Source: a virus. Taken from it: a stretch of 36,586 nt of DNA. The stretch is taken from positions 1 through 36,586 of IMG/VR virus record IMGVR_UViG_3300037245_001050; one strand, given 5' to 3'. The position numbers and the translations under genes are program-made. Below, piece by piece: positions 384-36,586 of this stretch (the first letter of the stretch is position 1; each line of letters begins with the position of its first letter). The notes below the pieces were generated by a model that ran no database searches, was not told the origin of the DNA, and saw only the letters and a program-made list of their open reading frames with translations.

Positions 384-396
384 AAGGAGAGAGGAT

Positions 397-687
397 ATGA
401 GAAAAAAAATAGATTCAAGAACTGTTACAGAGGGGGCTTATATTTCTTTTCCAGACAACACAATCTTTCCACATCCAGATAAAGTATCTGGTTTAGAGTG
501 GGTGTGTAGACACGGAAGTCACGAAGAGATAATAAGGCACAGAATGTACATAGCAAGCATCTTAGAGGCTTACAAAAGTCTTGTTCATCACCAGACCACA
601 GTAAATTATTTTAAGCGGAAAATATATGAGATTAGAGATCATGTAAGGCGCGAACGCAAAAACAACCGCAAAGGAGAAATGATATGA
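397..687 (+). CDS. Hypothetical early protein, 96 aa
   Basis: I do not recognise this family. The product is basic at the C terminus (a run such as RRERKNNRKGE), soluble-looking and without membrane segments. The start is well supported: AAGGAGAGAGG lies just upstream of the ATG. That ribosome-binding region is the best match to the pyrimidine-rich 5' end of the putative small RNA at 28029-28098. The stop overlaps the next gene by four bases (ATGA), so translational coupling is likely. It lies directly after the helicase loader in the early transcription unit. Confidence 0.7.
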   Translation: MRKKIDSRTVTEGAYISFPDNTIFPHPDKVSGLEWVCRHGSHEEIIRHRMYIASILEAYKSLVHHQTTVNYFKRKIYEIRDHVRRERKNNRKGEMI

Positions 688-2610: not shown

Positions 2611-3039
2611 ATGAGAGATAAGCTTAAGTTAAAAATAGGTGAATATTTATTTGAGTCAAACTGGTACGCTCGCGAAGAAGGTCAAAGACCAAATTATTAT
2701 TATTCTTCCTATCAGCGGGCTGTGTTGTCAAAGAGCATAATACAAGATGAAGATGGTAAAAGAATAACGTATAATATTACAGGCATAGGTGATATTGATG
2801 CTAGCATGTCGTTAGAGTCTTATAACCTATTTACAACAAAGAAAGCTGCCGATGAAGGCGCTAAACAGCTAGTAATAAAAGCATTAAAGGGCATGAAAAG
2901 GATAGATACAACTGGATACACACAGCACATAGCGCTTCTTAAAGCCCGCATAAAAACCGCTAACAACCCAAAACGCACCAAAAGGTTTGCGGATGCTATA
3001 AAATATTTGTATGATAATTTACCGAAAGGAGAAAGATGA
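2611..3039 (+). CDS. Hypothetical early protein, 142 aa
   Basis: I chose the ATG at 2611 because AAGGAGGG ends seven bases upstream. An in-frame GTG at 2605 overlaps the ribosome-binding site. The protein is basic and soluble, with a tyrosine-rich N-terminal section (NYYYSSYQR) and a lysine-rich C-terminal helix (RIKTANNPKRTKRFADAIKY). There is no recognisable catalytic motif. It overlaps the next gene by four bases. Confidence 0.6.
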   Translation: MRDKLKLKIGEYLFESNWYAREEGQRPNYYYSSYQRAVLSKSIIQDEDGKRITYNITGIGDIDASMSLESYNLFTTKKAADEGAKQLVIKALKGMKRIDTTGYTQHIALLKARIKTANNPKRTKRFADAIKYLYDNLPKGER

Positions 3040-3341
3040 TGAGTGAGATATTAAAAAACTTAGAAGATGATTTGGGTAATGTTGATATTGACTATGCAGA
3101 GAGCAGGCTGATACCTATCATGCAGGCACAGGTATTAATTGAAGGAGTCAAACAGCTCACACGCATAGCGGATAGCTTGGAGGCTTTAACCCCACAAATT
3201 GAGCAGGAAAGAAAAGTATGTTCAACTTGTCATTATGGTAAAGATTTCGGGGCAGGAACAGTTTGCGATAATGGTCTTGTGTGTCTTAATTATTCTGCAT
3301 GGCAACCGAGACTTGACAAACCCGATAAGAGTACGGTATAA
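3036..3341 (+). CDS. Small protein with C-terminal cysteine cluster, 101 aa; last early gene
   Basis: The N-terminal two thirds are acidic and helical (MMSEILKNLEDDLGNVD). Residues 65-95 hold a four-cysteine cluster in the arrangement CSTCHYG, VCDNG, VCLNYSAWQP. This C-x2-C...C...C-W-P pattern is seen in many small phage proteins and is likely to bind zinc. AAAGGAGAAAG provides a good ribosome-binding site, and ATGATG offers two adjacent starts. The 3' end of the gene contains the promoter at 3313-3342, so the late transcription unit starts inside it. Confidence 0.65.
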   Translation: MMSEILKNLEDDLGNVDIDYAESRLIPIMQAQVLIEGVKQLTRIADSLEALTPQIEQERKVCSTCHYGKDFGAGTVCDNGLVCLNYSAWQPRLDKPDKSTV

Positions 3342-3342
3342 T
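3313..3342 (+). promoter_or_regulatory. Sigma70-like promoter for the late (structural) operon
   Basis: A perfect TTGACA at 3313-3318 is followed after 18 bases by a perfect TATAAT at 3337-3342. It overlaps the stop codon of the gene before and lies about 75 bases upstream of the small terminase gene. The expected transcript start is near 3349. The only departure from the ideal is the 18-base spacer. Confidence 0.75.
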
Positions 3343-3417: not shown

Positions 3418-3912
3418 ATGGCAGGACGACCGACAAAGTTTAGATTACCATTAGCGGCTGAGATATGCCTCAAGATGATAACTGAAAACCCGCCAAACAA
3501 TAATGTAAAAAAGATATGTGCAGCGAATAGTAAATATCCTTGCTTTAAAACATTTTATTCATGGTTATTTAAGGCAAATCAGGAAGATTCTGCTGACGAA
3601 TTTAAAGAATTTCTACACCAATATAACAGAGCTATCGAGATAAGGGCTGATATTTATAATGATGAGCAGGTTAACATAGCATATGACGACAAGGGTGACA
3701 TCCTAGTAGGCTTGCAAGGTATGAGGGGTAACTCTACCAATGTGGCACGGTCAAAGCTTAAAATTGACACGATTCAATACTTGCTAAAAGTGTCTAATCC
3801 TAAGAAATACGGTGATCGTAACGCTACCGACCTGACCATCAAATCAAACGGAGCTGCTTGCGATGCGCTACAGAAGATAACCGAGTCATATATGAATAAG
3901 GAGAAGGGATGA
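3418..3912 (+). CDS. Terminase small subunit (Sf6 gp1-like)
   Basis: The small terminase recognises the phage DNA and brings it to the motor ATPase for packaging. The opening MAGRPTKF is typical of terminase small subunits. The segment NVARSKLKIDTIQYLLKVSNPKKYGDR (read in two parts, about residues 108-134) matches the C-terminal oligomerisation region of the Sf6 gp1-like family. The middle (CFKTFYSWLFKANQ) fits a helix-turn-helix DNA-binding part. The length of 164 residues is normal. The start has GAGGTAGAGGG upstream. It sits as expected near the large subunit, with one small gene between them, and overlaps that gene by four bases. Confidence 0.85.
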   Translation: MAGRPTKFRLPLAAEICLKMITENPPNNNVKKICAANSKYPCFKTFYSWLFKANQEDSADEFKEFLHQYNRAIEIRADIYNDEQVNIAYDDKGDILVGLQGMRGNSTNVARSKLKIDTIQYLLKVSNPKKYGDRNATDLTIKSNGAACDALQKITESYMNKEKG

Positions 3913-4229
3913 TAAAAAGGCTACATAAGTTACCTGAAGCAATGGTGTGTAGAAGGCAGTTTACTAAAACTTCTAGCTTTTGGAAAATAATAACCTCATG
4001 GACATGTACCACTAAAGTAGAGTTGTTGTTTGAAACTGACATGCAAGCAGTATATCATTGTTCGCGCTGTAATTTAGATTATGTTTATATGAAGCAGAAG
4101 GTGGAACATGACGGCGCTGATATTGAAATGTGGGCGCTGTACTTAAATGAAGATCATGTTTACACTGTTGGAGAGCGGGTATTAGACAATAAATATGATT
4201 GCAGTATCGTGCAGCTTGAGGCTGCGTAA
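3909..4229 (+). CDS. Hypothetical protein between the terminase genes, 106 aa
   Basis: The family is not recognised. The product is a small soluble protein with a possible metal-binding pair of cysteines (HCSRCNLDY). An N-terminal segment is rich in basic and aromatic residues (RRQFTKTSSFWKIITSWTC). The start overlaps the small terminase stop (ATGA), arguing for coupled expression. Its position between the two terminase genes could mean a packaging accessory or an unrelated small cargo gene. Nothing in the sequence decides this. Confidence 0.6.
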   Translation: MIKRLHKLPEAMVCRRQFTKTSSFWKIITSWTCTTKVELLFETDMQAVYHCSRCNLDYVYMKQKVEHDGADIEMWALYLNEDHVYTVGERVLDNKYDCSIVQLEAA

Positions 4230-5531: not shown

Positions 5532-6960
5532 TTCATCAACATCTAGACTAACCCAAACAAGGGCAGAATATAACGCGCTAAGCGGGGTCTGGACGTACAA
5601 CATTGATGCGTATGATAATCAGGGTGGCTTTATTGATGGTGGTCACTTGATTGCGTATGTAAGGGAGACCCCAGAGGGATTTGAAAGAAGGAAGTCGCGT
5701 TGCTGGTTCCCTAATTTTGCTAAAGATGTGGCTGTTACTCTATCCGGTCACTTGTTCAAGAAGCCAGCGACAAGGGACTTTGGTACTAATGCGAACCTCC
5801 TGGCGTTCAAAGACTCCACAAACCAAAAGGGTGACATAACACTTCAAGAGTTTATGAAGCAGGTCGAGACCCATTCTTATGTGTTCGGGTACTGTATGGT
5901 GCTTGTAGACAAGCCAGCAACAGAGCAGAGCAACCGGGCAGAGGAGCTAGAGAACGGGAAACCTTATGCGTACATAATCGACCCGCCTGATATGCTTGAC
6001 TGGGAGCTTGACGAAGCTGGTGAGTTTAAGTGGGTGAAGCTGCGAGAGACCTACAGGACGGAAGCCGACGATCCGTTCGGAACCCATGATACTAAATCAC
6101 GATACAGGATATGGACTAAAGAGGGGTGGACGTTATACGATAGCGATGAAACCCAGATTGGCTCTGGTGAACATAACCTTAATCGCGTCCCTCTCATAAT
6201 GGTCAAGCATGATGAAAGCTTGAAGTATCCGACCATCGGGACATCAACATTTACTTCAATCGTGCAGTTAGCGGTCAGGCTGTTTAATGCCCTCTCTGAA
6301 CGTGATAATATCCTGCTCGGTGCTACATTCCCAATACTGACGTTACCGACAACAGACCAGCTATCGCAGAAAGCAGGTGATGATGATACTACAAGCGAGA
6401 AGAATAACCCTGCATTGGGTGTGGGGTCTGTTGTGGCGTTCGACCCAGAGAGCCGACACGCTCCTGCCTTCATTAACCACGATGGTAAGACGGTCGAGAA
6501 CTATGATAAGCTTATTGAGTCACTTATTAAGCAGATGCAACAATTAGCGCGCCTTGAGTTTACAGGTGGCACATATACAAGCGGCGTTGCTATGGCGTTT
6601 GACTTCGAGAAAACGAATCAAGCCCTTATTAAGAAAGCAGAGACGCTAAGAGATTCTGAGCTTGCTGTCTTGAGGCTGGTCGATCTATGGATGGACGGAA
6701 CAGGTGAGCTTGATGGCATCATAGTTGACTATCCGGGCGATTATAACATCATGGACGTTGAAAAGACGTTGAAGAATATATTTGCAACCCTTGAGCTTAA
6801 TATAAGTGAAACATTTGACAAGGAAGTACGCAAGCAATCATCACGCAAGATATTGCCAGCGATACCAGATAAGACACAAAAGATAATCGACGCAGAAATA
6901 GACGCAGCCGTTAAGCCGATAGATGAGCTTGATGATGATGAGGGGGAGGGGGATTTATAA
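5524..6960 (+). CDS. Portal protein (DUF4055 type)
   Basis: The portal forms the dodecameric ring through which DNA enters the head and to which the tail attaches. The sequence has the features of the DUF4055 portal family: an N-terminal TRAEYNALSGVWTYNIDAYD, then GGHLIAYVRETPEGFERRKSR (two parts) and a long mixed alpha/beta body. The C-terminal half has a helical stretch (ESLIKQMQQLARLEFTGGTY) and an acidic tail (DELDDDEGEGDL). The length of 478 residues fits. Its position right after the large terminase is the standard order. Confidence 0.85.
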   Translation: MANSSTSRLTQTRAEYNALSGVWTYNIDAYDNQGGFIDGGHLIAYVRETPEGFERRKSRCWFPNFAKDVAVTLSGHLFKKPATRDFGTNANLLAFKDSTNQKGDITLQEFMKQVETHSYVFGYCMVLVDKPATEQSNRAEELENGKPYAYIIDPPDMLDWELDEAGEFKWVKLRETYRTEADDPFGTHDTKSRYRIWTKEGWTLYDSDETQIGSGEHNLNRVPLIMVKHDESLKYPTIGTSTFTSIVQLAVRLFNALSERDNILLGATFPILTLPTTDQLSQKAGDDDTTSEKNNPALGVGSVVAFDPESRHAPAFINHDGKTVENYDKLIESLIKQMQQLARLEFTGGTYTSGVAMAFDFEKTNQALIKKAETLRDSELAVLRLVDLWMDGTGELDGIIVDYPGDYNIMDVEKTLKNIFATLELNISETFDKEVRKQSSRKILPAIPDKTQKIIDAEIDAAVKPIDELDDDEGEGDL

Positions 6961-9559: not shown

Positions 9560-10480
9560 ATGGCAACAGGAAATATGACAAATACAACGGTAGATGCGTT
9601 TATACCAGAGGTGTGGAGTAAAGAAGTTATCCTCACCGCAAACAACGCAACAATCTTCGGCGGTCTCGTCAGGCGTGATTTTGACGGGGAAATTAACAAT
9701 CAAGGCGATGTGGTTCATGTGCCGTTATTCTCGAAAGTCTCTACAGGCGACAAGCAGGCGAATACTGCGGTTGTTTACACTAACTACACCGAGGTAACGA
9801 AAGACATCACTATCGACAAGCACAAGTATTTTGCTTTCCGGGTTGAGGATATCGCGCGGATACAATCAAAGCCTGCATTGATTACCCCTTATGCCGCACA
9901 GGGCGGGCGTGCAATAGCTAATGTGGTAGATGTAGAGCTTGCGGCGCTTATTACCGATTCTACAATCACGCAGAACGTGGGAGCGCAGACATCGTCTGAT
10001 GCGGCTTATACCGACATCACAGATGCGGTTATTAGGGACGCTATACAGACGCTTGACGAAGCTAACGCCCCAGAGAACGGCAGGGCGATGGTTATTTCTC
10101 CAGCTCAGAAGAATGCTATGCTAGGTATTGATAAGTTTGTTGATGCCTCTAAGATTGGTGATGCTTCGGTAATAAGGACGGGCTTGTTTGGCAGTATCTA
10201 TAATGTTATGATATACGTTTCAAACAACCTTGCAGATGTAGCCAGTGTTGCATCAGTAGCATCGTCAGGTGGTGCGTCAGAAGTTAACCTAGAGCCAGCG
10301 CACAAGGCTTGCATGATGTTCCATCCAGAATGGGCAGCACTAGCGACACAACTACAGCCGAGAGTGCAGTCAAAGTATGATCTTGACCATCTCGCAGATA
10401 GCGTAGTGGGCGATATTATATATGGTGCTGACGTTTTGATTCCTACTTTCGCAGTACAGATTATGACTACATCAGAATAA
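9560..10480 (+). CDS. Major capsid protein (HK97 fold, possibly P22 coat-like)
   Basis: This is the main shell protein of the head. It has the usual opening (VDAFIPEVWSKEVILTAN), then GGLVRRDFDGEINNQGDVVHVP, TIDKHKYFAFRVEDI and ALITPYAAQGGRAIANVVD (longer pieces read in parts). These match capsid proteins of the P22/HK97-fold group. The length of 306 residues is right for a small genome. AAAGGAG lies nine bases before the ATG, as expected for a highly expressed gene. No separate N-terminal delta domain is obvious; the scaffold is a separate gene. Confidence 0.85.
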   Translation: MATGNMTNTTVDAFIPEVWSKEVILTANNATIFGGLVRRDFDGEINNQGDVVHVPLFSKVSTGDKQANTAVVYTNYTEVTKDITIDKHKYFAFRVEDIARIQSKPALITPYAAQGGRAIANVVDVELAALITDSTITQNVGAQTSSDAAYTDITDAVIRDAIQTLDEANAPENGRAMVISPAQKNAMLGIDKFVDASKIGDASVIRTGLFGSIYNVMIYVSNNLADVASVASVASSGGASEVNLEPAHKACMMFHPEWAALATQLQPRVQSKYDLDHLADSVVGDIIYGADVLIPTFAVQIMTTSE

Positions 10481-26596: not shown

Positions 26597-27997
26597 ATGT
26601 CATATCTAGGTGAAAAACAAAGAAGCGAGGCGGTGAGGCTCTATTTAACATTAGATACAGCTCCCACCGGAACGCCGACGGCAACGATCACACGTCAAGG
26701 CACGTCAGTATTAACGGCTACTAATATGACGCAGGGGGCAAGCACCCTTGAATGGTATTATGATTATACCACAGGCGTATCTGCGACCGTAGGAGCGCAT
26801 CAGGTCAAGTACACGGCGGTCGTTGATGGCGTGACTCGATTCGGATACGATCAATACGATCAGACCATAGATGATTTTGATTCTCTCGCGGTTGATATTG
26901 CATCAGTACAAGCTGATACGACAAGCATAGAAACCAAAGTAGATACTATTGATACGGTGGTTGATGCCATTCTCGTTGACACCACAGCTATAGAGATCGA
27001 CACAACGAGCATTGAAACTAAAGTTGATTCTGTCCAAGTCGATACAACAAGTATCGAGACGAAGGTGGACTCTATCCAAACCGATACAACCAGTATCGAA
27101 AGCAAGGTTGATACTATTGATACTAATGTTGATACAGCCCTCACTAATCAGACAAGCATTGAGGGTAAAATCGACACGATAGATACAGTGGTTGACTCCA
27201 TACAGGTAGACACTACCAGTATAGAAACTAAGGTAGATACTATTGATGGCGTAGTCGATGCAATCCTTGTCGATACCACAGCCATAGAAATAGATACTAC
27301 AAGTATTGAAACTAAGGTAGATACTGCGATAGTTGATATTGCGGCAGTCCCTACGGTAGGAGAGATTGATACAGAGCTGACATCAGAGCATGGAGCGGGC
27401 GCGTGGACAACAACAGGGGCAGGATCGGGAGCATATAACGCTACTGTCAATGTCAAAGATGATTCAGCTATAGATGTACCAAACGCCTTTGTCACAATTC
27501 ATAACGCAAGCGACGATGATGCACCTGTTATCGCTAATGGCACAACCGACAATAGCGGGAATGTGATACTTGCTATCGACGGCAATGTATATATAAGGGT
27601 ACGCAAGGCAGGCTTTAACTTTACCAGCACCGCTAAGAATATTACAGCCACAGGGACATATAACGTGACAGGCACAGCTATTGCTGCGACGAACCCGAGC
27701 GATCCTGACGTATGCAGGTTGAGACTATACCCGATCACTCTAGGCAATGCAGACATAACCGATCTCGCAGATGAGATCATTATATCAAGTCAAGGTAGCC
27801 TAACCAAGATAAACGATCAGTATATTAAGAATACGGAGCTATCTTTTACATACGATAGTGGTACAACCCCAGACAGCTATTACTTTGACGCGGTACGCTT
27901 GTCTACATGCCATATAACATGCGCGGCATTAGGGCTTGACCATGACATAACCGTACCGGACGAAGCAACTAAAAACATCAGCGATTTACAGACTTGA
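26597..27997 (+). CDS. Fibre-like protein with a long coiled-coil repeat region, 466 aa
   Basis: The N-terminal 90 residues form an Ig-like beta domain. Residues about 94-249 are built of a repeated 14-residue unit (DTTSIETKVDSIQV and close variants), two heptads long, with Ile/Val at regular spacing. This is the pattern of a trimeric coiled-coil stalk. After it come a short linker, an Ig-like carboxypeptidase-regulatory-type domain (VNVKDDSAIDVPNAFVTIHN, GNVYIRVRKAGFNF) and a C-terminal domain. A stalk with end domains is the build of a tail fibre. It is the last gene of the late operon, and the stop codon lies in the -35 box of the next promoter. Confidence 0.65.
   Translation: MSYLGEKQRSEAVRLYLTLDTAPTGTPTATITRQGTSVLTATNMTQGASTLEWYYDYTTGVSATVGAHQVKYTAVVDGVTRFGYDQYDQTIDDFDSLAVDIASVQADTTSIETKVDTIDTVVDAILVDTTAIEIDTTSIETKVDSVQVDTTSIETKVDSIQTDTTSIESKVDTIDTNVDTALTNQTSIEGKIDTIDTVVDSIQVDTTSIETKVDTIDGVVDAILVDTTAIEIDTTSIETKVDTAIVDIAAVPTVGEIDTELTSEHGAGAWTTTGAGSGAYNATVNVKDDSAIDVPNAFVTIHNASDDDAPVIANGTTDNSGNVILAIDGNVYIRVRKAGFNFTSTAKNITATGTYNVTGTAIAATNPSDPDVCRLRLYPITLGNADITDLADEIIISSQGSLTKINDQYIKNTELSFTYDSGTTPDSYYFDAVRLSTCHITCAALGLDHDITVPDEATKNISDLQT
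26880..27345 (+). repeat. Degenerate 42-bp tandem coding repeats
   Basis: About ten degenerate copies of a 42-base unit encode the 14-residue coiled-coil repeat, and the first and last blocks are similar over about 110 bases. Copies share protein sequence but differ at many synonymous positions, so the repeat is conserved in protein and not in DNA. The repeat lies wholly inside the fibre gene. Confidence 0.7.
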
Positions 27998-28028: not shown

Positions 28029-28098
28029 AATATATCCTTTCTCCTTAAGGTTATTTTAGTCTACCGAACGAGCCTGCTGCTGCAACAGTGGGCTTTTT
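28029..28098 (+). ncRNA. Putative small regulatory RNA of about 70 nt with an anti-Shine-Dalgarno 5' end
   Basis: A near-consensus promoter (27994-28022) predicts a start near 28029 and a rho-independent terminator ends at 28098, with no open reading frame of useful length between them. The 5' region at 28032-28046 reads ATATCCTTTCTCCTT. It is complementary to the long ribosome-binding regions of several early genes: 16 contiguous pairs with 2 G-U before 397, 16 with 3 G-U before 35797, and 14 with 2 G-U before 33863. Expression has not been shown, and the tract could be chance. The layout of exposed 5' seed followed by terminator hairpin is that of trans-acting small RNAs. Confidence 0.45.
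28071..28098 (+). terminator. Rho-independent terminator after the late operon
   Basis: AGCCTGCTG (28071-28079) pairs with CAGTGGGCT (28086-28094) over nine base pairs, including two G-T wobbles, around a six-base loop (CTGCAA). A run of five T (28094-28098) follows. It is placed 74 bases after the stop of the last late gene and before the early promoter, so it separates late from early transcription. Confidence 0.85.
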
Positions 28099-28190
28099 CG
28101 TGTCTAAGATACAACATGCAGTACCCAATTACCACATCTTGTGAATATCAATATAAAACGAAATAAAATGAAATATAATGAAAATAAAAC
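28099..28190. other. A/T-rich non-coding tract upstream of the main early promoter
   Basis: These 92 bases contain no gene. The last 40 are rich in A with repeated AAAT and ATGAAA units (ATAAAACGAAATAAAATG and so on), ending at the -35 box at 28191. Such A-tracts resemble UP elements that stimulate RNA polymerase. No clear inverted repeat is seen, though the tract could also bind a regulator. Confidence 0.4.
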
Positions 28191-28219
28191 TTGACAAGCT
28201 TATATAAACTTGTTAATCT
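28191..28219 (+). promoter_or_regulatory. Main early promoter
   Basis: TTGACA at 28191-28196, a 17-base spacer and TAATCT at 28214-28219, with a TGT extension just before the -10 (28211-28213). ATAAAAC precedes the -35, the same bases as before the promoter at 33524. The transcript would start near 28226, about 42 bases before the first early gene. Confidence 0.75.
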
Positions 28220-31455: not shown

Positions 31456-31470
31456 GAAAGGAGAAAGGGA

Positions 31471-32076
31471 ATGAGAGAAGCGATTAATTTACCATTACAC
31501 TTAAGGGACGCTGTGTCTTCACAGCACGAGACCATACGACACATCTTGCTTTATAGTGAGGATGTCGTCCGCATGAATAAAAAGCTAGAGCAAGAGTTGG
31601 CATCAGAAATAAGTATGCGTATTGTTACATGCACGCTGTTTGACGAGCAAACAAAAAAGCTCGCCGACAAAGACGTAGAGATCGCGCGGTTGAAGGAAGA
31701 GAGCGAAGGTCTTGAGGTTGTTCTAGCCGAGATTGAAGAACTTTGTTCTAAGTCAGGGATTGATAACTTTGACACTCTTTGTCATACAGAGATGGTTGAG
31801 GGTCTTGTGGGGCTAGTCAATAAGCTAAAACCAGAACATGCCAACTGTGAAGAGTGCCTTAATCACGGACTTAATAGGGACAAGGTCGTTAACCGCATCA
31901 AAAAACAGCGCGAGAACGCTCAAGCCAAATCCTCTAAGCTGAACGCAGAGAAGAGGGAATATATGAAAATTGTCTGGCGAGCATTGTGCCGAGAGGGGGT
32001 AATTAGAACTAAAATTGACAGGAAATATAACACATACCTCAAAGCTCAAGCCAAGAAGCGCAAAGGAGCTAAATAA
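31471..32076 (+). CDS. Hypothetical coiled-coil protein, 201 aa
   Basis: Residues about 45-95 form a coiled coil (KKLADKDVEIARLKEESEG, LEVVLAEIEELC) and the C-terminal 60 residues are strongly basic (KKQRENAQAKSSKLNAEKRE, YLKAQAKKRKGAK). A cysteine pair (CEECLNHG) lies between. The basic tail suggests nucleic-acid binding. GAAAGGAGAAAGG precedes the ATG. The gene follows the hairpin at 31429-31455 and overlaps the next gene by one base. No family is recognised. Confidence 0.55.
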   Translation: MREAINLPLHLRDAVSSQHETIRHILLYSEDVVRMNKKLEQELASEISMRIVTCTLFDEQTKKLADKDVEIARLKEESEGLEVVLAEIEELCSKSGIDNFDTLCHTEMVEGLVGLVNKLKPEHANCEECLNHGLNRDKVVNRIKKQRENAQAKSSKLNAEKREYMKIVWRALCREGVIRTKIDRKYNTYLKAQAKKRKGAK

Positions 32077-33523: not shown

Positions 33524-33552
33524 TTGACAGAGTAGTTATCGTTTGTTATTGT
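33524..33552 (+). promoter_or_regulatory. Sigma70-like promoter of the helix-turn-helix and methyltransferase unit
   Basis: TTGACA at 33524-33529, 17 bases, then TATTGT at 33547-33552 with a TGT extension (33544-33546). The bases before the -35 are ATAAAAC as at 28191. The transcript would start near 33559, which rules out the upstream TTG start of the following gene. Confidence 0.65.
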
Positions 33553-33575
33553 TAGAAAATATAAAAGGGGGTTTC

Positions 33576-33770
33576 ATGGACGGATATATCAGAATAAGCA
33601 CAGCCCAAAAAGAAATATGGAATGTTACGCGGCAACAGTATTACAAGTGGATAAAGGAAAATAGGTTTGATGCTGTGCAGATCAATCACGGCAATACGTC
33701 ACCGTATTGGATAAAGAAATCAAGCTTACTTGACTTTATTGAGACACTACAGCAACCGATGGCGTTATAA
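33576..33770 (+). CDS. Small helix-turn-helix DNA-binding protein (excisionase-like)
   Basis: The product of 64 residues reads RISTAQKEIWNVTRQQYYKW at the start, which has the spacing of a MerR/excisionase-type winged helix, followed by an NHGNTSPYWIKKSSLLDF wing and helix. AAGGGGG lies before the ATG at 33576; an in-frame TTG at 33543 falls inside the promoter. The protein may regulate its own promoter or the methyltransferase gene behind it. Without an integrase an excisionase role is unlikely. Confidence 0.65.
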   Translation: MDGYIRISTAQKEIWNVTRQQYYKWIKENRFDAVQINHGNTSPYWIKKSSLLDFIETLQQPMAL

Positions 33771-33845: not shown

Positions 33846-33862
33846 CCTTACAAGGAGAGAGG

Positions 33863-34903
33863 ATGCATAAGATAAACGTATTATCATTATTCGACGGACT
33901 GAGCGGCGCCAGGATAGTACTCGATCGGCTAGGCATAGAATGTACTTACTATGCAAGTGAAGTCGATAAGTACGCGATTAAGGTGGCTCAAGCAAACTAT
34001 CCAGATACGATACAGCTCGGCGATGTGACGCAAGTGAGGGCAGAGGACTTACCGACCATCGATCTTTTAATTGGTGGATCTCCTTGCCAGGACTTGAGTG
34101 TCGCTAAATCAGGACGCCAGGGTCTTGAAGGATCCCGCAGCGGTTTGTTCTGGGAATATGTAAGATTGCTTCGCGAGCTGAAACCAAAGTACTTTTTACT
34201 TGAGAATGTCTACAGTATGAAAGCCGTTGATCGCGACATTATCAGTAAGGCTATGGGTTGCTCACCGATGAGGATTAATTCAAGACTTGTTACAGCTCAG
34301 AACAGGGAAAGGTTGTTTTGGCATAATACCGGCGTGTTCATGCAGCCGATGGATCAGGGCATAGTGCTTGCTGATATTGTAGAGGACGGTGTTGTTGATA
34401 GAGAGAAGAGTTATTGCGTTGCCGCTACCTATCATGAAATCGGAGTTAATAGCAGGCGCGATTATGACAAGGCGTGCCGGCAGGTAGTCTTTAAAACAGG
34501 GATACAAACCGTTCCCCGGGGATATAATAACGGGGGGATAAAAATAACCGACAAGTCTCCGCCGGTTACAAGCAGTGCTTTTGAGCATAATAATAAGTTA
34601 GTTATTAATCCTATCAAACTCGGCCATCTTGGACAAGATAAGCGGCCATATAGGGTTTACAGTACAGAGGGCAAGTCAGTTACTCTAATGGGTAATGCTG
34701 GTGGTATGGGCGCTAAGACAGGACTGTACTATACGCACGAAGGCATCCGCAAGCTCACGCCCTTAGAGTGCGAACGCCTACAGGGTATACCGGAAGGTTA
34801 CACCGACAAAGGAGTCAGTAACACGCAACGCTACAAGATGATCGGTAACGGATTTACTATACCGGTGATAATGCATATATTAAATGGGATTACAGGAGCA
34901 TGA
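33863..34903 (+). CDS. C5-cytosine DNA methyltransferase
   Basis: All main motifs of the Dcm family are seen: motif I (LSLFDGLSGARIVL near residue 8), motif IV with the catalytic Cys75 (GGSPCQDLS) and motif VI (ENV, Glu114). Near the end come motif IX (RKLTPLECERLQGIPEGY) and X (RYKMIGNGFTIPV). The variable middle part (about residues 150-270) would recognise the DNA target, which cannot be predicted here. The length of 346 residues is normal. CAAGGAGAGAGG precedes the ATG. The likely role is to protect phage DNA from host restriction; no partner restriction gene is present. Confidence 0.9.
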   Translation: MHKINVLSLFDGLSGARIVLDRLGIECTYYASEVDKYAIKVAQANYPDTIQLGDVTQVRAEDLPTIDLLIGGSPCQDLSVAKSGRQGLEGSRSGLFWEYVRLLRELKPKYFLLENVYSMKAVDRDIISKAMGCSPMRINSRLVTAQNRERLFWHNTGVFMQPMDQGIVLADIVEDGVVDREKSYCVAATYHEIGVNSRRDYDKACRQVVFKTGIQTVPRGYNNGGIKITDKSPPVTSSAFEHNNKLVINPIKLGHLGQDKRPYRVYSTEGKSVTLMGNAGGMGAKTGLYYTHEGIRKLTPLECERLQGIPEGYTDKGVSNTQRYKMIGNGFTIPVIMHILNGITGA

Positions 34904-35783: not shown

Positions 35784-35796
35784 AAGGAGAGGGGAT

Positions 35797-36384
35797 ATGA
35801 GAGTATTGGTAGCATGCGAGGAAAGCCAAGCGGTAACTATAGAGATGAGAAAGCTAGGCATAGAGGCTTTTTCTTGTGACATTGAACCGTGTTCAGGTGG
35901 TCACCCAGAGTGGCATATTAAGGGAGACGTTACACCGCTATTAAAACAAAGGTGGGACATGATAATCGCGTTTCCGCCATGCACTCATTTAGCTGTAAGT
36001 GGAGCTGCTTGGTTTGAGCAGAAAAGAAAAGACGGCAGACAACAGCAGGGTATTGATTTTTTTATGTTGTTTGCTAATAACAAATGCCCGTTAATAGCTA
36101 TTGAAAACCCGATAGGTATAATGTCAACCAAGTGGAGAAAGCCGGATCAGATCATACAGCCATGGATGTTCGGTCATGCTGAGTCAAAAGCTACTTGCCT
36201 ATGGCTCAAGGGTCTGCCGAAGATTACAGAGATAAACAATGTGAAAGAAGTGTTTGATACGCTACCAAAGAATAAACAGCAAAGGCTGCATTATTTACCA
36301 CCGTCACCAGACAGGGCAAAGTTAAGATCGAAAACATTTCTTGGAATCGCTAGAGCAATGGCGGAACAGTGGGGATTGGTATGA
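35797..36384 (+). CDS. Short C5-methyltransferase-like protein, 195 aa
   Basis: I place the start at 35797 because AAAGGAGAGGGG precedes this ATG; an upstream in-frame ATG at 35773 has no ribosome-binding site. The sequence RVLVACEESQAVTIEMRKLG is a SAM-binding start with a glutamate after strand 1. FPPCTHLAVSGAAWF holds the catalytic-type Cys62 and AIENPIGIM the ENP motif (Glu103). No separate target-recognition domain is visible, and the C terminus (RSKTFLGIARAMAEQW) replaces motifs IX and X. It belongs with the compact phage DNA cytosine methyltransferase-like proteins; activity is not certain. Confidence 0.7.
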   Translation: MRVLVACEESQAVTIEMRKLGIEAFSCDIEPCSGGHPEWHIKGDVTPLLKQRWDMIIAFPPCTHLAVSGAAWFEQKRKDGRQQQGIDFFMLFANNKCPLIAIENPIGIMSTKWRKPDQIIQPWMFGHAESKATCLWLKGLPKITEINNVKEVFDTLPKNKQQRLHYLPPSPDRAKLRSKTFLGIARAMAEQWGLV

Positions 36385-36586
36385 TATCACCTGACCAATT
36401 TATAAAGAGCGTGCAGAAAGCAGAGGTAATCGGTAAAGGTCTCGACCATATCAACCAACAGATCAACTGCCCTGTCCGCTATGCTCATGCCACCCCTGAT
36501 ACAATGGATGGCAAGCTAAAGGAGTGGTTCACCTTAACAGAGGGACGTAATAGCCTATTCGTGCATGGTAGTGTGGGAACAGGTAA
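36381..36586 (+). CDS. DnaC-like helicase loader, N-terminal part (continues at base 1)
   Basis: The ATG at 36381 overlaps the previous stop (ATGA). The 68 codons present include a helical start (SPDQFIKSVQKAEVIGKGLD) and end in FVHGSVGTGK at the window edge, the Walker A of the AAA+ ATPase. The rest of the protein is at 1-383, and the two parts fit with a one-base overlap. The gene follows the replication initiator-like gene and the short methyltransferase gene. Confidence 0.85.
   Translation, partial: MISPDQFIKSVQKAEVIGKGLDHINQQINCPVRYAHATPDTMDGKLKEWFTLTEGRNSLFVHGSVGTG

Follow-up and report, generated by a model that had tools for sequence, protein, structure and literature searches.

A short promoter-terminator unit between the late and early genes of this phage encodes, with a probability that we put at roughly 0.6, a trans-acting antisense small RNA (sRNA) acting on the phage's own translation starts. 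The window analysed here is the whole 36,586-base IMG/VR virus entry, in which the promoter and terminator anatomy of the unit and the non-random complementarity of its CU-rich tract to start regions were confirmed; from the sequence we infer transcription, duplex formation, repression and timing of the small RNA.

The ends of the record overlap by 1 base, and with the duplicate A left out the ORF of a DnaC-type ATPase (36369–36586 joined to 2–383; Walker A motif GTGKT, GTGKTHS) crosses the junction. Because this gene reads through the joined ends, the map is circular or circularly permuted. The + strand carries nearly all credible genes: those for packaging, head, tail and lysis (late region) extend from 3418 to 27997, and those for recombination, methylation and replication (early region) from 28268, via the record ends, to about 3341. 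No lysogeny functions were seen in this phage. Identities to the closest known phage proteins were low (capsid ≤31%, terminase ≤30%, Sak4 ≤29%), protein searches with the tail, capsid, exonuclease, terminase and Sak4 sequences returned distant relatives only or none, and DNA searches for relatives found none. A perfect TTGACA-18-TATAAT promoter at 3313–3342, which overlaps the 3' end of gene 3036–3341 and precedes terS, probably drives the operon of packaging and structural genes. The last late gene (26597–27997) contains diverged internal repeats (26885–27338) coding for a coiled coil, the copies being offset by multiples of 21 nt.

An earlier note on this DNA had described a near-consensus promoter followed by a strong terminator with no gene between them, and promoter and terminator scans together with the ORF list bore this out (Table 1). 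Promoter P1 ranked second among the + strand sigma70-type promoters, with only the perfect promoter at 3313 scoring better, and the TGA stop of the last late gene sits inside its -35 box. The terminator, the strongest in the genome according to the terminator scan, begins 73 nt past the last late gene, and its stem showed pairing probabilities of at least 0.85 at every base and near 1 at most; by its position it closes the late operon as well as the small RNA. The 5' end of the RNA was inferred to lie 7 nt past the -10 box, and its 3' end was taken as the terminator U-run. The predicted fold consists of a weak 5' hairpin (CCUU/AAGG stem with UCUCCUU in the loop, opening cost about 2 kcal/mol), a single-stranded linker and the terminator hairpin; compared with shuffles, the whole RNA was modestly stable (z -2), which was mostly owed to the terminator. 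The 5' seed, which had been proposed to be exposed, is not fully so, since the CCUU/AAGG hairpin covers part of it. An Rfam covariance-model search with the RNA unit gave no match. The unit has its own promoter, an intrinsic terminator and no ORF, as would a trans-acting bacterial-type sRNA that blocks translation initiation.

Table 1. Coordinates of the promoter-terminator unit, of related promoter elements and of the predicted target start regions.
Feature	Coordinates	Strand	Description
Promoter P1	27994–28022	+	TTGACA-N17-TATATT; 11 of 12 consensus matches
Operator-like dyad of P1	27997–28016		ACAAR-N10-YTTGT; between -35 and -10 of P1
Predicted small RNA, ~68 nt	28029–28096	+	no ORF
CU-rich tract UAUAUCCUUUCUCCUU	28031–28046	+	complementary to Shine-Dalgarno (SD), spacer and start codon of several phage genes
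Intrinsic terminator	28070–28095	+	10 bp stem, 6-nt loop, U-run
Promoter P2	28191–28219	+	TTGACA-N17-TAATCT; past the terminator, before the first early gene (28268)
P2 dyad copy	28194–28213		between the P2 hexamers, position as in P1
Promoter P3	33524–33552	+	akin to P1/P2 (ACTTGACA...TTTGTTA); within the early region; dyad partial only
Start region of gene 397–687 (96 aa)	384–399	+	16 bp, 2 G-U; helix -27.1, net -16.6 kcal/mol
Start region of gene 35797–36384 (DNA methyltransferase, phrog_757)	35784–35799	+	16 bp, 3 G-U; net -18.2 kcal/mol
Start region of gene 3909–4229 (106 aa, between terS and terL)	3897–3911	+	15 bp; net -17.3 kcal/mol
Start region of gene 33863–34903 (C5 cytosine methyltransferase, Pfam DNA_methylase)	33852–33865	+	14 bp, 2 G-U; net -14.0 kcal/mol
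Start region of gene 31471–32076 (201 aa)	31458–31469	+	12 bp, 1 G-U; net -14.2 kcal/mol
Weaker possible target upstream of gene 6961	6939–6951	+	13 bp, 5 G-U; net -12.0 kcal/mol

Complementarity was scored with a 23-nt window slid along the + strand, the score being the mean of the five best helices with start regions. Among 12,186 + strand windows the tract ranked first, with a score of -24.9 compared to -19.4 for the runner-up site. This top-five score was equalled by none of 3000 dinucleotide shuffles, none of 3000 mononucleotide shuffles and none of 3000 variants in which the CTCCTT core was retained; equal pairing scores of shuffled control RNAs had been named beforehand as a refutation, and none of the 3 x 3000 controls gave one. 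As no variant keeping the core scored as well, the match is not confined to the anti-SD core but takes in spacer and start codon too. Single helices of about -25 were found in 14 of 200 shuffled genomes, so that the unusual thing is the set. Under an identical procedure the present phage reached a z of -7.6 at a site that is intergenic and has a terminator, compared to at most |z| 5.8 for ten other phage contigs, none of which had a top-scoring site that was both intergenic and accompanied by a terminator. In a genome-wide target scan of the + strand, the top six sites (397, 3909, 35797, 33863, 31471 and the weaker 6961) were all located at or just upstream of starts, and nine of the 20 best sites had a start no more than 20 nt downstream of them (0.6 expected). 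When up to three mismatches were allowed, the motif AAGGAGARRGGATATGAG was present at six forward positions, five of them at starts, and its one match on the reverse strand of the genome is the CU-rich tract. Non-random complementarity to the initiation regions of distant genes, as expected of a trans-acting sRNA, was thus observed.

The pairings previously stated for genes 397, 35797, 33863 and 31471 were all reproduced in length and in number of G-U pairs, and two further targets were found, namely 3909 in the packaging operon, which is the second strongest, and 6961. The capsid gene at 9560 is indeed a poor match, with a run of 7 bp instead of the six given before. Once both partners were opened, the five best duplexes retained a net energy of -14 to -18 kcal/mol. 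Gene 397 comes after the DnaC-like gene, and its start region is nearly identical to that of 35797 over 23 nt. There are about 52 starts, and the top five include those of both recognised DNA methyltransferases (2/2), for which the chance is about 0.007 (calculated post hoc). With gene 28268, the closest one downstream, the tract forms no more than 8 bp, which argues for pairing in trans and not in cis, and the five best targets are located about 3.4–12.4 kb downstream of the unit around the circular genome. A cis-antisense RNA of the OOP or sar type was rejected on account of these distances and of the short pairing with the adjacent gene.

Early genes had been put forward in the earlier note as the best-matched set, with the RNA switching off early translation when late genes are made. 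Early starts did pair better than late starts with the tract (p = 0.0007), but the 16S anti-SD sequence showed the same bias (p = 0.0004); the tract resembles the 16S 3' end and hence pairs with any strong SD, and SDs are stronger in early than in late genes. The margin by which the tract exceeded the 16S anti-SD was no different for early than for late genes (p = 0.44). The 16S anti-SD comparison led us to reject early-gene specificity of the tract as unsupported, and the second strongest target lies in the terS-terL operon. The proposed action at the late stage was likewise unsupported, given that P1 has the dyad of the early promoter P2. This 20-bp dyad has exactly two matches in the genome, in P1 and P2 (0.19 expected), and is likely the operator of a phage regulator; because P1 shares it with P2, P1 is probably co-regulated with the early promoters and their genes. 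Within 33524–33770, P3 precedes an ORF of 64–75 aa with a weak HTH_17 match below the Pfam cut-off, which is a candidate regulator of P1, P2 and P3. The terminator scan found no strong + strand terminator between 3418 and 28070, so that late mRNAs would carry the tract at their 3' end, and the RNA could be supplied by either early synthesis from P1 or late read-through mRNA. Early synthesis would be compatible with early shut-off, since T4 regB, which is early-promoted, inactivates early mRNAs. Of the original proposal, the sequence statistics lend good support to a trans-acting sRNA pairing with starts and none to early-gene specificity; a late switch, though unsupported, is still conceivable.

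According to the antisense model, P1 would give rise to a short untranslated RNA that ends at the terminator, and the loop UCUCCUU of the weak 5' hairpin would make the first contact with the Shine-Dalgarno sequence. Opening of the hairpin would then allow a duplex of 12–16 bp to form across SD and spacer, which for 397, 35797, 3909 and 33863 would also take in the start codon, and the ribosome would be blocked. The RNA would act mainly on a few of the phage's genes, the two DNA methyltransferases among them. With a P2-type dyad in P1, the RNA would probably be co-produced with early mRNAs and limit or shorten translation of its targets, and late read-through transcripts, with the tract as 3' UTR, could prolong the effect.

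It appears unlikely that the terminator merely closes the late operon, with P1 being an early promoter or a leftover that makes a by-product and the CU tract being functionless. The 73 nt between the last late gene and the terminator, the lack of a preceding strong + strand terminator in the late region and the failure to find a conserved relative would all suit such a by-product, but only one + strand promoter is better than P1, which has its dyad in common with P2, it would be unnecessary for early mRNA because P2 lies beyond the terminator, and the rank-1 complementarity would be left without explanation. Complementarity to distant starts is also unaccounted for if P1 and the terminator form a leader or attenuator of the lambda PR'–6S RNA type, in which the short RNA is the default and antitermination extends it into the early operon. 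Although the order of promoter, terminator within about 50 nt and operon is that of an attenuator, the genes beyond it are served by P2, the leader has no sequence able to compete for the terminator stem by pairing, and the hairpin is present in nearly all of the ensemble; read-through by means of a protein antiterminator is conceivable. We rate this explanation slightly below the by-product.

Far less probable is a role of the tract as a DNA operator downstream of P1 with incidental RNA complementarity: the six gene-start matches would have to be coincidence, and the dyad family of this genome sits inside P1 and P2, between -35 and -10, and not right after the start site, where an imperfect dyad (ATA-CCTT-N7-AAGG-TAT) is nevertheless found. 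We give hardly any weight to the P1 transcript being a replication primer or origin activator in the AT-rich stretch 28130–28190. An A-rich intergenic stretch does lie directly downstream, but GC skew keeps its sign over the whole genome, DnaD-like and DnaC-like loaders are encoded away from the unit, and the complementarity would be unexplained. Just as improbable is an origin of the tract from the ribosome-binding site (RBS), now an inverted relic, of a lost minus-strand gene; its reverse complement AAGGAGAAAGGATAT would make an excellent RBS, and outside matches to such tracts mostly lie in coding sequence or are the antisense of RBSs belonging to minus-strand genes, but the minus strand lacks a start codon at the right distance, the frame closes within 8 codons, and an origin as a relic would be compatible with a present sRNA function.

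In scans of IMG/VR and GTDB no homologous promoter-tract-terminator element was found, and the exact tract ATATCCTYTCTCCTTAAGG occurred in no other record of the viral collection; the viral and genome collections yielded no homologous unit in which the pairing could be conserved or covary. A wider class was defined as a promoter followed by CCTYTCTCCTT, with the reversed tract as control. This pattern matched 17 IMG/VR contigs (13 distinct) compared to 9 (7 distinct) for the control, and a terminator was located downstream in about 4–5 of the 13 distinct matches and in 0 of the 7 distinct controls, which are small numbers; in GTDB there were 5 matches, none of them with a terminator. We do not claim a wider sRNA family, because the counts are too small and many of the matches fell in coding sequence or on the antisense of an RBS of a minus-strand gene. 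The best look-alike belongs to a marine-looking phage fragment present in two contigs, L031 (875–990; 875–995) and L043 (6571–6686; 6571–6690), in which TTGACA-TATAAT is followed by AATATCCTCTCTCCTTT and by a terminator with a 14-bp stem, with no ORF between. Its anatomy is as here in an apparently unrelated phage, and its pairing with its own starts is weaker (at most 10 bp). The second look-alike, on the reverse strand of the GC-rich contig L038 (position 6522 of the reverse complement), has TTGACA-17-TATACT, then CCTTTCTCCTT and a terminator with a 13-bp stem. As a search rule, each non-coding promoter-terminator unit can be scored for complementarity to the phage's own start regions.

By analogy, the predicted RNA would work like the C-rich SD-binding sRNAs of Gram-positive bacteria, without our claiming membership of a named family. 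LhrC (Listeria), RsaE and FsrA use C-rich (UCCC) SD-binding motifs to block initiation (PMC4132741), and the likeness lies in a short RNA with a C-rich, SD-binding motif that is single-stranded or in a loop. In contrast to these, the RNA described here would be phage-encoded with phage genes as targets, it has CUCCUU with specific spacer and start-codon matches in place of UCCC, and no sequence homology was found. Among phages, sar (P22), OOP (lambda) and c4 (phages P1/P7) are short phage-made RNAs directed at phage mRNA by base pairing; the initiation of translation or the RBS is the point of attack for sar and c4 (PMC12197685). One main target is described for each of the three, that is, one RNA for one target or one switch, whereas here one RNA would act on several distant genes in trans. 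VpdS (phage VP882), which acts on phage and host mRNAs, and 24B_1 (phage Phi24B) are phage-encoded sRNAs that act on phage gene expression (PMC12197685), but they are Hfq-linked, come from temperate phages and are unlike the present unit in sequence and anatomy.

In its effect the RNA may be compared with T4 RegB, an early-made endoribonuclease that inactivates mRNAs at the GGAG Shine-Dalgarno sequence of many early genes and whose own gene is transcribed from an early promoter (PMC3014915); RegB is a protein nuclease and not a base-pairing RNA, so that the analogy is one of effect only. We tentatively suggest, as a possibility held with less than even confidence, that one early-made antisense RNA is a multi-gene translational governor of the phage's own programme and an RNA counterpart of T4 RegB, in which a single CU-rich tract would have its counterpart in SD-spacer-start sequences that are near-identical among several unrelated genes, i.e. 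the two DNA methyltransferase genes, one gene linked to replication and one from the packaging operon. If this is true, one RNA tunes several of the phage's own genes in trans via a common extended ribosome-binding site, adding to phage temporal control an RNA layer comparable in effect to that of T4 RegB.
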